In this document: positions 1 to 28,078 of the stretch, piece by piece
Numbering within the stretch: the first letter of the stretch is position 1
Layout of the letters: each line of letters opens with the position of its first letter
NCBI GenBank assembly: GCA_030627285.1
Contig: DAOUSJ010000005.1
Span: forward strand, 1 to 44,350
Reading direction: 5' to 3'
DNA length: 44,350 nt
DNA from: Methylococcaceae bacterium
GTDB lineage: Bacteria; Pseudomonadota; Gammaproteobacteria; Methylococcales; Methylomonadaceae
Translations under genes and position numbers: made by a program
Notes under the pieces: generated by a model
What the model saw: only the letters and a program-made list of their open reading frames with translations
Databases searched by the model: none
Told to the model about the DNA's origin: nothing

Positions 1-1148
1 AAAATTCGATGACGGAAACTCATTTTAAAAATATTCAATTGCAAGTGGATGCAAATCTTAAAGAAATAAAATTAACTAAATTGAATTTGCAAGATGCTGA
101 TACTGGCACTTTAACAAGCTCTGGTTTAGTGAATTTAAATGCAGATAAAAATTTTCCAGTTAAAATAAATTTATTATTTAAGCATTTGCAATTGGCAAAT
201 AGTCCAAAATTGAATACTCATATGAGTGGTAAATTAAATTTAACTGGTAATATTGAAAAAGCTTTATTGAAAGGTAATTTAGCTGTTGATGATTTCCGCT
301 TCATTTTGCCTTCTTCTGCTGGAAAAAAGTCAATTCCTGAATTAGAAATTATTGAAATAGGCGGTAATAATAGAGTTAAAAAATCTAAAACAAATAAAAA
401 TGTAGCGGTTAAAACTACTAAACCCAAAAAAGATTTAGCTTTACAATTAGATGTGAGAATTAAAATAGAGAACCAATGTTTTATTAGTGGTCATGGACTT
501 GAATCTGAATGGTATGGCGATCTTAGTGTTAAAGGTTTTGCAAATGCACCCCAAATTTTAGGACAAATTCAAACTAAACGTGGGTCTTTGGAATTATTAA
601 ATAATATGTTTGTGTTTAATAGAGGTTTAATTGATTTTAATGGAGCTTTTCCACCAATACCAAGTTTGGATATTCAAACAGCTGCTGAAACTGATGCAGG
701 CAAGGCATTAATCAACATTAGAGGGATGGCAAACAATCCAAAATTGGTTTTAAGTCATGACCCAGTAATTCCTCAAGATGAAATTATTTCGAATTTATTA
801 TTTAAGCAAGATAAAAAAAGTATTTCACCTATGCAAGCTCTACAACTAGCAGATGCAGTTAATTTAATGGCAACTGGTGGCTTTGGTGGTTTAGATGGTT
901 TAAGCAGTTTGCGTAGTGGTTTGGGTTTAGATCGTCTAAGTGTGGGTGGAGATAATTTTGAAACTGCTGCGGTTAAAGCTGGAAAATATGTAACTGATAG
1001 TATCTATATTGAAATTGAACAAGGTTTAGGTAGTGAATCTAGCACTGCAACTGTAGAAATTGATTTATTCCCAGACATTAAGGCTGAGGTTGAATTTAGC
1101 CAACAATCTGATAGTGCAGTAGGGATAAAATGGAAACATGATTATTAG
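1..1148 (+). CDS. tamB: TamB C-terminal part (translocation and assembly module), 5' end outside window
   Basis: This is the C-terminal region of TamB, the inner-membrane-anchored periplasmic bridge protein that, with the Omp85 protein TamA, serves outer-membrane assembly and lipid traffic. The reading frame is open to the window edge, so the first in-frame ATG at base 9 is probably internal; TamB proteins usually exceed 1,000 residues. The visible 379 residues are beta-rich, with alternating polar and hydrophobic residues. They end with the typical DUF490 features: an asparagine/glycine-rich FNRGLIDFNG segment, the SHDPVIPQDEIISNLLF segment, a glycine-rich stretch and a final amphipathic strand. 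A TamA gene, if adjacent, lies upstream outside the window. Family assignment is firm; the start is unknown. Confidence 0.9.
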   Translation, partial: NSMTETHFKNIQLQVDANLKEIKLTKLNLQDADTGTLTSSGLVNLNADKNFPVKINLLFKHLQLANSPKLNTHMSGKLNLTGNIEKALLKGNLAVDDFRFILPSSAGKKSIPELEIIEIGGNNRVKKSKTNKNVAVKTTKPKKDLALQLDVRIKIENQCFISGHGLESEWYGDLSVKGFANAPQILGQIQTKRGSLELLNNMFVFNRGLIDFNGAFPPIPSLDIQTAAETDAGKALINIRGMANNPKLVLSHDPVIPQDEIISNLLFKQDKKSISPMQALQLADAVNLMATGGFGGLDGLSSLRSGLGLDRLSVGGDNFETAAVKAGKYVTDSIYIEIEQGLGSESSTATVEIDLFPDIKAEVEFSQQSDSAVGIKWKHDY

Positions 1149-1168
1149 GCTGAATTTATTGATAATAC

Positions 1169-1197
1169 TGAATAAAAATAGCAGACAGAGTTATAAT
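1169..1197 (+). promoter_or_regulatory. possible sigma70 promoter of sbcC
   Basis: A perfect TATAAT lies at 1192-1197, 17 bases after a weak -35 (TGAATA, 1169-1174) and about 38 bases before the sbcC ATG. Only the -10 is convincing, and such hexamers occur by chance in A+T-rich DNA. Confidence 0.35.
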
Positions 1198-1235
1198 AAT
1201 GCCCTCTATATTGTATGAGATAAGTTTGTCATCGC

Positions 1236-4200
1236 ATGAAAATTCTGAATATTTATTTTAAAAACTTAAATTCTGTTGCTGGTGAAACCCGCATTAATTT
1301 TCAGAAAGGTGCATTATCCAAAGCTGGTGTATTTGCCATTATTGGACCTAATGGATCGGGAAAATCTACGATTCTAGACGCTATTAGTTTAGCGTTTTAT
1401 GGTGAAACTTTTAGGTTTCAACAAGATAATGAACCAATTATGACCCATGAAACTATGGAAAGCGTAGCGCAAGTAGATTTTAGTTTAAATAATAAAACTT
1501 TTCGTACCCGCTGGCAATTACATAGAACTGATAATGAATTTTCAAGTCCGCGCATGGACTTATTGGCTCTGGATTTAAAAACTGAGACTATATTAGAACA
1601 AACTCCAACTGCGGTAATTGCAAAAATAACCAATATGATTGGAATGGATTTTCATAATTTCAGTAGATCTATATCCTTGGCGCAAGGTGATTTTGCTACA
1701 TTCTTAAATGCTTTGGATGCAGAAAGAATGGAAATTTTAGAAACTATGAATGGCACTGATATTTATGCTGAACATAAACAATTATTACAAGATAAGTATC
1801 AGCAATCTGAAACCGCATTAGCCTCAGTAAATCAAGAATTAGATTTATTGCAAATTATGGATGCGGAAACTTTGGCGGCTTCAGAAGCAGATTTAGTAGA
1901 TTTTAGACAGCAAGTAAAAGTTCAGAAAACAGAATTAAATGCCATTAAAGAGAATTCTGCATGGTTAACTCAGTTAGATTCTTTAAGTCAAAATTTAGAT
2001 AATCTAGCTCAACAAAAGCAAAAATTGCAGAATCAATTTCAAGCTAATCAACAGCAACTGGATACAATTGTAGATAATGCGTCAGTTTTAGAATTCAAAC
2101 CCGCTATAGAACAAATCAATCGTCAGCAAAAACAATTACGTCAAACAAAACATAGTCTTGATGAGTCAAATAGTGAATTGTTGGCATTAAAGCAGCAATT
2201 TGGACAACTGCCAGCAGTAGATGAGGCTTTGTTTGCAGAGTATAAAAATCAATCTCCAATTGAACAAAAACAGCATCTGGATGAATTTAAATATCAAGCC
2301 AGCCAATTAAAATTAGCTTTAGAGGCTGAAACTAAAGCTGAAAAAAACTTGCAAGAACAAATTAGCAAGCATCAAATATCTTTTGATGAGGTTGGTGCTT
2401 GGATGGAAATGCATAATAGTGAGCAGACTTTAGCGGATATTGGCGTACCTAAACTTAAAGAATTAAGAATTTTAACTGCGAAACTTGCTTCTTTAGAAGA
2501 AATTCATGAAGTTCTGCAACAACAAGCTAAAATTAACGGACAAGTTTTGGCGAAAAATTCAGCTGAAACTGTTAATTCACAGCAAAAAATTCTTGCTTTA
2601 GAAAATAAGTCAAAAAATTCTGAACAGTTGTTGAAAGATTTATCTAGTGATAGGGATATGGCAAAAGTTGAATTTTGTATTCTTGAACAGCAAGAACGGT
2701 TGGCGCAATTTAAAGCTATGTATGGGTTAGCTAAAAAAAGTCAAGAAACTAATAATTCTGGAATTTTTGGGTTTTTAAGATCTACTCCAGTAGAGTTGAT
2801 TGGTATAGAAGATTTGGAATCTAAAGCCGATGGTTTAGCAACTGAAATTGTTGAATCTCAGACTTTAATTAAGACCTTGGAACAAGCAATTAAAAATGAA
2901 ATTTTAATTCGTAAATTGTTGCCTCACAGAATTGATTTAATACCAGATTCTCCATGTCAATTATGTGGTGCTTTGGAACATCCTTTTATTATTAATCCAC
3001 CAAATGAAAATATAGATTCTAAACCATTGTTAATCAAGCAAAAAAGTCATTTAAAGTCGTTAATGTTGGAAGCGAATAAATTGCAGTTGCAAATTACTAA
3101 TGCGCGTAAAAAAGATTTGTCGAAGCAAGAAAATCAGCGTCAAATTCAGCAAAATCAAGCGCAATGGAGTTTATTGGCTAATCGTTTGAATGTGGCTACA
3201 GCAGATTTAACTGTGGAAAATTTGGATTTTATGCGGCAGTTGATTAAACAAGCTGAAGTTGAATTAAAGGATTTGCAAACTTTATTAACTAGTTATAAAA
3301 CTTTGTATAAACAAATAGCTGAATTCAAACAAAATATTTTGCAAGAAACTGAAATTGTTGATGCTTTGCAAGTGAAAAAAATAACTCTGGATACTGAAAC
3401 TGAGCAATTGCCAGCACAAATTATAACGGATGAAGCGGAATTGCTAGCGTGTAGAGAAGAAGAAGCTAGTTTGCGTAAGGAAGTTTTAATGCAGTTGAAT
3501 TTACTTGGTGAAAGTATTCCTGAGTTAGAGCAAGAAGCAGGCTTATTGGAGATTTTTACTGCAAAACAACAGGAGTATAAATTATATGAGAATCGTTATC
3601 AGCATTTAAGTGAAGTTTTAGCTCCATTTAAGCCTCAACAAGCTTCGTTAACTACAAAAATCAATCAATTAACGCAACAATTAAATCAGCAAACTACTGC
3701 ATTGGAGCAACATAAGGCAATGAATTTGTATTTGTTGATTGCAGATAAAGAAGTTTTGCAAATTGAAAAACAACAACAACTTCAGCATCAAGAGCAAGAA
3801 TTACAGCAGTTTCAACAAGTTTTAGTGAAGCAATTAGCTACCACTAAATATACTGCAATTAAACAACTTAAAACTGCTTTGCAACAGCAGGATGAGCAAC
3901 CAACATTTGAGCGTCAAAAAACTGCTTTGCAACATCAATTAGATACTTTGGATACAGAATACAATACATTAGCCGCGCAATTGGCTGCTGAACAAGCACA
4001 AGCTTTAACTGATTTTAGTGCAGAAGAGTTAATGGCGCAACAACGTGGGTTGCAAGAGAAAATTAATATTGCGCAGGCTGAAATTCAACATTTAGTGCAA
4101 AAACATCATAAACAAGAGCAGTTTAGAGAGCGTTTTACAGTATTAACTGCAACTCGAAAACAACAATTACACGCAGTTACAGAAACTCAAGCTGCGGTTT

Positions 4201-26744: not shown

Positions 26745-27350
26745 ATGGTAAACACAATGAATAATATAACTTTAGTGAGTATTCATATTCCTAAAACTGG
26801 TGGAAGTACGTTTACGGCAATTTTAAAACATATTTATGCGGATAAATTGCAATTGGCATATGGAGATCAACGTGATGTTATTAGAACTCATCCACAATGT
26901 TTTCATGGACATAAAATAATTAAGAAATTTAGTCAAGATGTGTATTTATTGGAAAATGCTAAATGGATTACTTTTTTACGCAACCCTCTTAATTCAGCAA
27001 TATCTTTATATTATTATCATTTAGGTAAACGAGTTTTAGATTTAGAACAATGGTTACTGCATGCTGATAAAACTAAAGGATATAACCATAATAGGTATAA
27101 TAAACAATTAGCAAAATGTGGTAAAACTTGGGAAGAATTTGATTTTATTGGTGTGACTGAACATTATGCAGCATCACTGAATAAAATTTCTGAATTATTA
27201 GTTTGGCCAGAAATTAATTATCAGTCAAAAAATATTGGTTCATATACGTCTCCCAATTTGAGTGCAGATGTAGTGGCAGAATTTGAAGAATTAAATCAAC
27301 AAGATTACATTTTGTATAGAAATGCAGTGCAGGCATTATTACACAAGTAA
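26745..27350 (+). CDS. small sulfotransferase-family protein
   Basis: The 201-residue protein looks like a compact PAPS-dependent sulfotransferase of the carbohydrate type. The 5'-phosphosulfate loop PKTGGST is at 16-22 (HIPKTGGSTF), and the 3'-phosphate-binding motif follows R79 (FLRNPLNSAISLYYYH). The rest is shorter than many members, and the acceptor is unknown. A GAGA-type site lies about 7 bases before the ATG. It stands alone between a porin and crcB. It shares the same two motifs with the C-terminal half of the tandem sulfotransferase at 42556-44172, so both may modify the same class of surface glycan (inference). Confidence 0.75.
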   Translation: MVNTMNNITLVSIHIPKTGGSTFTAILKHIYADKLQLAYGDQRDVIRTHPQCFHGHKIIKKFSQDVYLLENAKWITFLRNPLNSAISLYYYHLGKRVLDLEQWLLHADKTKGYNHNRYNKQLAKCGKTWEEFDFIGVTEHYAASLNKISELLVWPEINYQSKNIGSYTSPNLSADVVAEFEELNQQDYILYRNAVQALLHK

Positions 27351-27367
27351 TATTTTTATTATGCTGA

Positions 27368-28078
27368 TTATTTGATATGTATAGCGAACATATAGCTCAG
27401 TATTAAGCATGAACTAGAACCAAATATATTTATTGCAAAAATTTGTGCTATTTGTTGCATGTGATTAGTTAAAGTATAACCGTTGGCAAATACAGATAAA
27501 ATTAAATACACGCTGGATAGGGTAATAAATATACCTATGATAATTAAGCTTAAAGTTGCTTGATGTTCTAGTGATAAGGTAGATTTAGATAATAATAAAA
27601 CTCCGATTAAGCCAATTAAAAACGCCACTAAAGCATTAATTATAATTAATCCATACGGCAAAGCTAATTTTTGGGTGTGAAGCCAACCATTTTGGTTTAA
27701 AAATAATAGTTTGCCAATTAATAATCCTACCCAAACCGCACTTATACATGCAAAAATATTACCAATTATATTGAGAATAGCTTTAGTGAATTGTTGTTGT
27801 TCAATGAGTAAATAGGTATCTAGTGAGAAAGTAGCAAAGGTGGTAAATGCACCTAAAAAACCTACCAAAATTGCAGCTTTGTATTCTGAATTTAAGCCAA
27901 ATTTTTCAATTGTAAGACTTACACTTAATAAGCCCATTAGAAATGAACCGACTATATTAACAGTTAGAGTTCCATATGGAAATTCACGCCCTAACCAGTG
28001 GTAAATTCCATTGGAAACCAAAAATCTTAATACAGCTCCAGATGCACCTCCAAGTGCGATTACAAATAATGTGGTCAT
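27368..28078 (-). CDS. crcB: fused double-length CrcB/Fluc fluoride channel
   Basis: CrcB (Fluc) exports fluoride; normal members have about 125 residues and four helices and dimerise antiparallel. This one has 236 residues. Residues 1-123 are a complete CrcB with GGASGAVLRF, PYGTLTVNIVGSF (N41) and GFLGAFTTFATFSLDTYLL (F81, F84). Residues 139-236 are a degenerate second copy: PYGLIIINALVAF (N148) aligns with the first NIVGSF segment, and GIFITLSSVYLIL aligns with GAFTTFATF, with F81 and F84 replaced by L187 and V190. The second copy lacks helix 1, giving a 4+3 helix count that would invert it relative to the first. It follows orn by 5 bases. No fluoride riboswitch is visible. Confidence 0.85.
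   Translation of the reverse strand: MTTLFVIALGGASGAVLRFLVSNGIYHWLGREFPYGTLTVNIVGSFLMGLLSVSLTIEKFGLNSEYKAAILVGFLGAFTTFATFSLDTYLLIEQQQFTKAILNIIGNIFACISAVWVGLLIGKLLFLNQNGWLHTQKLALPYGLIIINALVAFLIGLIGVLLLSKSTLSLEHQATLSLIIIGIFITLSSVYLILSVFANGYTLTNHMQQIAQIFAINIFGSSSCLILSYMFAIHIK

Follow-up and report, generated by a model that had tools for sequence, protein, structure and literature searches.

The window, that is, the whole stretch of 44,350 nucleotides of Methylococcaceae DNA that was analysed, carries a fused crcB gene at positions 27368–28078 on the minus strand. The gene starts with ATG 5 bases past the stop codon of orn and forms one open frame of 236 codons without internal stops, and its 236-residue product has seven predicted transmembrane (TM) helices. 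A sulfotransferase-like gene (26745–27350, plus strand; PF03567, 1.2e-5) is convergent with crcB and lies 17 bases from its 3' end. Around crcB, neither a fluoride riboswitch nor any other Rfam family matched at the gathering score, and only chance-level matches appeared at a relaxed threshold.

Three parts were distinguished in the protein, all encoded on the minus strand. Copy 1 (residues 1–124, 27707–28078) is a complete four-TM CrcB/Fluc domain, in which residues 6–119 match the CrcB profiles PF02537 (E = 8.4e-28) and PRK14195 (E = 8.7e-37). All of the pore residues, R18, T37, N41, F81, F84, D87, N103, and N107, are present, and its Phe box, F81-A82-T83-F84 (27827–27838), corresponds by alignment to F80 and F83 of the Fluc Ec2. 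Among 148 fused sequences, only the window protein has Ala, not Ser, between the two Phe residues, at A82 (27833–27835). The linker (residues 125–140, 27659–27706) comprises the end of TM4 and a remnant of the TM1–TM2 loop. Copy 2 (residues 141–236, 27371–27658) is a pore-dead half with three helices, TM2', TM3', and TM4', predicted to be inverted. It retains the TM2 Asn at N148 (27635–27637), and the alignment of the 148 fused sequences places its lost Phe box at L187-S188-S189-V190 (27509–27520).

Residues 140–236 alone match PRK14195 (E = 0.0014) and, used as a query, found CrcBs of the ordinary single-domain type in a further 64 genomes of the class (E ≤ 0.001), mostly in frames of 124–200 aa. 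The best of these matches has E = 1.2e-6 and 38% identity, and the alignments start at the P of PYG. Since the second half aligns with single-domain CrcBs from PYG onward, it represents a CrcB that starts at TM2, and an origin unrelated to CrcB is ruled out by these matches. TM1 of copy 2 is absent in every fused relative, and the TM1–TM2 loop is kept. The linker reads YPWLGHGFPY in sister proteins and thus resembles the loop of copy 1 (YAWLGRGFPY), indicating that TM1 was removed cleanly with the loop left in place. These results agree with the first-pass annotation, which had described a full CrcB copy fused to a decayed one that keeps PYG and N148, lacks helix 1, and has L187 and V190 in the places of F81 and F84; the complete copy spans residues 1–124 and the CrcB-derived three-helix half about residues 141–236.

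Our search for further long bacterial CrcB proteins returned 148 distinct fused homologues of about 235 residues from across Methylococcales, with a length of exactly 235 aa in 107 of the collected proteins. So many homologues of nearly constant length exclude a frameshift artefact or a chimeric open reading frame. Matches were found in 58 of the 61 relatives searched, mostly in fused frames of 235–240 aa, and order-wide in 287 of 311 genomes, where the best approximately 150 listed were all fused. The second-half scan of genome contigs gave 80 loci, nearly all labelled Methylococcales (Methylobacter, Methylomonas, Crenothrix, Methyloprofundus, Methylovulum, and Methylomicrobium among the genera) and a few of them unclassified metagenome-assembled genomes. 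Among the matches listed for families f7 and f8 (about 5 and 2 genomes, respectively), the matches end at residues 123–142 and are single-domain, and elsewhere in the phylum the CrcB open frames are mostly 120–170 aa. The window genome contains a single CrcB match, and the fused gene is likewise the only CrcB match in most relatives. No fused CrcB match was obtained in one complete genome of the same family (G014, 5.1 Mb), although further genomes of that genus contain such a match. Apparently split genes in G914, G1007, G1047, and G928 were set aside, as they coincide with contig ends, masked bases, or a possible assembly error. One genome (G870) carries a decayed extra crcB with in-frame stops and frameshifted stretches (L148, 1438–2124, minus strand), and a different contig of that genome has an intact fused gene. 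The open-licence literature yielded no description of bacterial CrcB fusions, although one may exist elsewhere, and a review of the field names no forms other than single-gene homodimers, gene pairs, and the FEX proteins of eukaryotes (PMC11139923). The fused CrcB is a lineage-wide architecture of Methylococcales that is apparently undescribed in the open-licence literature.

The two copies differ markedly in their pore residues. R18, T37, N41, F81, F84, and N103 of copy 1 are each conserved in 148/148 sequences, and across all 148 positions 87 and 107 vary only between E and D and between S and N, respectively. Copy 2, by comparison, has lost the Thr (L144), both Phe, and the Glu (I193), so that nothing of the pore-residue set (T, N, two Phe, E/D, and the TM4 polar track) remains in it except two Asn. 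Position 187 is L in 99/148 sequences and F in 12/148; position 190 is L in 136/148, V in 5/148, and F in 2/148. N148 is N in 112/148 and is gone from the more diverged members. Other positions of copy 2 are well kept: P141 in 137/148, G182 in 139/148, S188 in 133/148, and N217 in 135/148. The loss of both Phe, the Thr, and the Glu is in line with the initial proposal that the pore of copy 2 itself is dead.

An AlphaFold2 model of one chain, built from 85 fused sequences (pLDDT 88, pTM 0.83) and replacing a 15-sequence run with pTM 0.46, contains seven membrane helices, as had been proposed. Copy 1 in the model shows the TM3 break of Fluc at residues 78/81 and aligned to the Fluc structure 5nkq with Z 18.5 and 1.4 Å over 123 residues. 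The helices of copy 2 span residues 142–164, 170–198, and 207–235, and TM3' is unbroken. On this predicted topology of four helices followed by three, copy 2 must be inverted relative to copy 1, and the earlier suggestion that the second half lies upside down thus stands as an inference from topology. The model aligned to the Candida FEX structure 9op1_C over residues 1–126 only (Z 9.2, 123 aligned). A FEX-like pseudo-dimer should align over both halves, and the restriction to copy 1 may speak against a FEX-like placement of copy 2, a placement that is judged from which residues of a single-chain model align to FEX. Among the structure matches listed, none pairs copy 2 with a second Fluc subunit, an absence that in itself is no evidence. 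Thus, copy 1 has four TM helices, the broken TM3, and the fold of 5nkq and 5a43, whereas the chain as a whole, with 236 residues and seven helices, departs from the 120–130 residues and four TM helices by which Flucs are described (PMC3755343); the fused chain is a variant of the CrcB/Fluc family and not a canonical member.

Four genomes of family f6 (G058, G804, G805, and G806) carry two adjacent, convergent fused crcB paralogues in which copy 1 is intact in both partners. In G058 (L037) the two genes lie at 1046–1759 (plus strand) and 2059–2787 (minus strand) with a DUF190 gene between them (PF02641, 1.2e-11), and the arrangement of the two crcBs is the same in the other three genomes. The partners differ in the sign of their K+R bias, which is +5/−5, +3/−8, +3/−4, and +3/−4 in the four genomes. 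The bias of the single fused CrcBs is near zero (mean −1.3; 0 for the window protein), as is typical of dual-topology proteins (compare the table in PMC3962082). In the copy 1 tree, which includes three of the pair genomes, the minus-bias paralogues (L037, L132, and L134) form one clade (100/99) and the plus-bias paralogues (L037b, L132b, and L134b) another (97/89). Judged from these sequences, the opposite biases are the pattern classically seen when a dual-topology gene has split into two genes for an obligate antiparallel pair, and the split here apparently concerns the fused chain as a whole.

Copy 2 has been lost in two lineages, represented by G960 and G057, the only losses counted. In G960 (95% complete; L170, 1501–1875, minus strand), a stop codon directly follows R123, unrelated DNA lies behind it, and copy 2 is gone. 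In the near-complete G057 (L045, 1044–1523, plus strand), the protein is 160 aa long and copy 2 is reduced to one helix. Both genomes have one CrcB match each, with all of the copy 1 pore residues kept, which suggests that the channel can do without copy 2. Both losses sit within fused clades of the copy 1 tree.

The Phe residues bear directly on how the chain may assemble. Each Fluc pore is formed with Phe80 from one subunit and Phe83 from the other (PMC4969038), so a half that lacks both Phe impairs each of the two pores of a dimer. Because copy 2 is without both Phe, a pair of copy 1 and copy 2 would have Leu in both pores (Val in one, for the window protein), and neither cross-half Phe box is complete. 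A pair of copy 1 with copy 1 of another chain would, from the residues present, have two complete Phe boxes. F81 in a one-chain channel would line the dead pore of copy 2 and would be expected to drift, as the Phe residues of the dead pore of FEX have done (PMC5417652); its invariance would follow from pairing between the copy 1 domains of two chains. Together, the invariance of F81, the opposite-bias pairs, the losses of copy 2, and the FEX alignment limited to copy 1 point to a two-chain channel based on copy 1.

Hence, we consider it probable that the conducting unit is a double-barrelled Fluc formed by copy 1 of two antiparallel chains, with copy 2 as a retained, inverted, pore-dead structural half. 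An ancestral CrcB/Fluc gene would have undergone tandem duplication and fusion, in which the second TM1 was lost, and copy 1 of one chain would pair antiparallel with copy 1 of another. The channel would thus be a homodimer of dual-topology seven-TM chains in most species; in some members of one family, it would be an obligate heterodimer whose two fused chains have opposite orientations. Copy 2 would be non-conducting and kept by purifying selection, probably packed beside the channel. The charge bias of the paralogues and the logic of the Phe box lend indirect support to the antiparallel two-chain assembly and fluoride conduction. Several considerations weigh against this two-chain reading. 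FEX tolerates the loss of a single Phe, so a fused channel with Leu could still be active; charge biases of opposite sign could arise by drift between chains that each work alone; G960 and G057 could compensate for their losses in unseen ways; and copy 2, if dispensable, would still need a role, given its near-universal retention and its dN/dS of 0.12.

The first-pass annotation had instead proposed an antiparallel Fluc built into one chain, with one live and one dead pore. Copy 2 would then replace the second Fluc subunit, and the pore of copy 1 (T37, N41, F84, D87, N103, and N107) would work with Leu in place of the partner Phe. The arrangement of four plus three helices supplies the inversion that such a channel needs, N148, G182, T186, S188, and N217 are kept in copy 2 of most members, and FEX is a precedent for a single chain with one dead pore, in which F96A is impaired only 11-fold and F330A 1.4-fold (PMC5417652). 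However, the F80L and F83L mutants of Ec2 are both null for transport (PMC5636608, Table 1), which, with each pore taking one Phe per half, speaks against a live pore in this arrangement. In addition, a one-chain channel leaves the invariance of F81 without a reason and is disfavoured by the opposite-bias paralogue pairs, by the loss of copy 2 in G960 and G057, and by a copy 2 that has no TM3 break in a model aligned to FEX over copy 1 only. We therefore regard the one-chain channel as unlikely. A mean-field coupling analysis of the 148 sequences (effective 86) gave scattered pairs between the halves, too noisy to decide.

The conservation of copy 2 bears on whether it has any function at all. 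Its mean identity is far lower than that of copy 1 (40% vs 65%), which, together with the nesting of both losses in fused clades, would fit a functionless evolutionary remnant that is slowly decaying and not yet lost. Its dN/dS, however, is 0.12 (vs 0.08 for copy 1), indicating that copy 2 is under purifying selection, the length is nearly constant at 235 aa over many genera, and P141, G182, S188, and N217 are each kept in at least 133 of the 148 sequences, so that a mere remnant appears quite improbable. We infer that the role of copy 2 is structural beside the channel, e.g., in packing, insertion, or stability. A loss of fluoride-channel function in the fused protein, at which the lack of any Rfam match near the gene, including a fluoride riboswitch, might hint, is extremely improbable, since the channel residues of copy 1 are all invariant and the fused protein is the only CrcB match in the window genome and most relatives.

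Flucs, the textbook dual-topology proteins, are regarded as displaying all stages on the way to inverted-repeat transporters. The present data add a whole bacterial order that carries a fused CrcB, in which the parity problem is solved by deletion of TM1. In one family, a duplication of the fused gene seems to have followed, giving partners of opposite orientation, and the second half was dropped again in at least two lineages. Methylococcales thus offer a natural series for testing the origin of inverted repeats, the decay of a pore after fusion, and the keeping of an inverted half for a purpose other than the pore. Should the doubtful one-chain arrangement hold after all, bacteria would have arrived at an analogue of FEX by deletion and not addition of a helix, with a less strict Phe box and a pore that conducts with a single Phe.

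Compared with the Fluc/CrcB homodimers (Ec2, 5a43; Bpe, 5nkq), copy 1 has the same fold (1.4 Å over 123 residues) and every pore residue, and the fused chain adds an inverted, pore-dead three-TM half. The heterodimer gene pairs of Fluc, e.g., La1/La2, have their likeness in the adjacent opposite-bias paralogues of four genomes of one family, the window genome having a single copy; here, each partner is a fused seven-TM chain, and the genes are convergent, with the DUF190 gene between them in G058. FEX (yeast Fex1p and Candida FEX, 9op1) likewise has two inverted CrcB domains per chain with the pore of one domain dead. Descriptions of prokaryotic Flucs cover single four-TM proteins and gene pairs, and a captured linker helix was considered necessary for fusion (PMC3755343). 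FEX reaches the inversion by such an added linker helix and has TM1 in both halves, whereas the fused CrcB has no linker helix and its copy 2 lacks TM1, so that the anticipated deletion of helix 1 in place of the FEX linker helix agrees with all of the fused relatives. The working pore of FEX combines T, N, the second Phe, E, and the TM4 track of one domain with the first Phe of the other (PMC5417652). The Phe residues of FEX were thus lost in cis, leaving one pore intact, whereas the fused CrcB has lost both Phe of one half, that is, in trans. Finally, the two-domain fusions of DUF606, for which Lolkema 2008, as cited in PMC3962082, gives a course from a dual-topology gene through a gene pair to a fused antiparallel form, are a similar case in a different family; in contrast to DUF606, the fused CrcB chains appear to have become a gene pair themselves.
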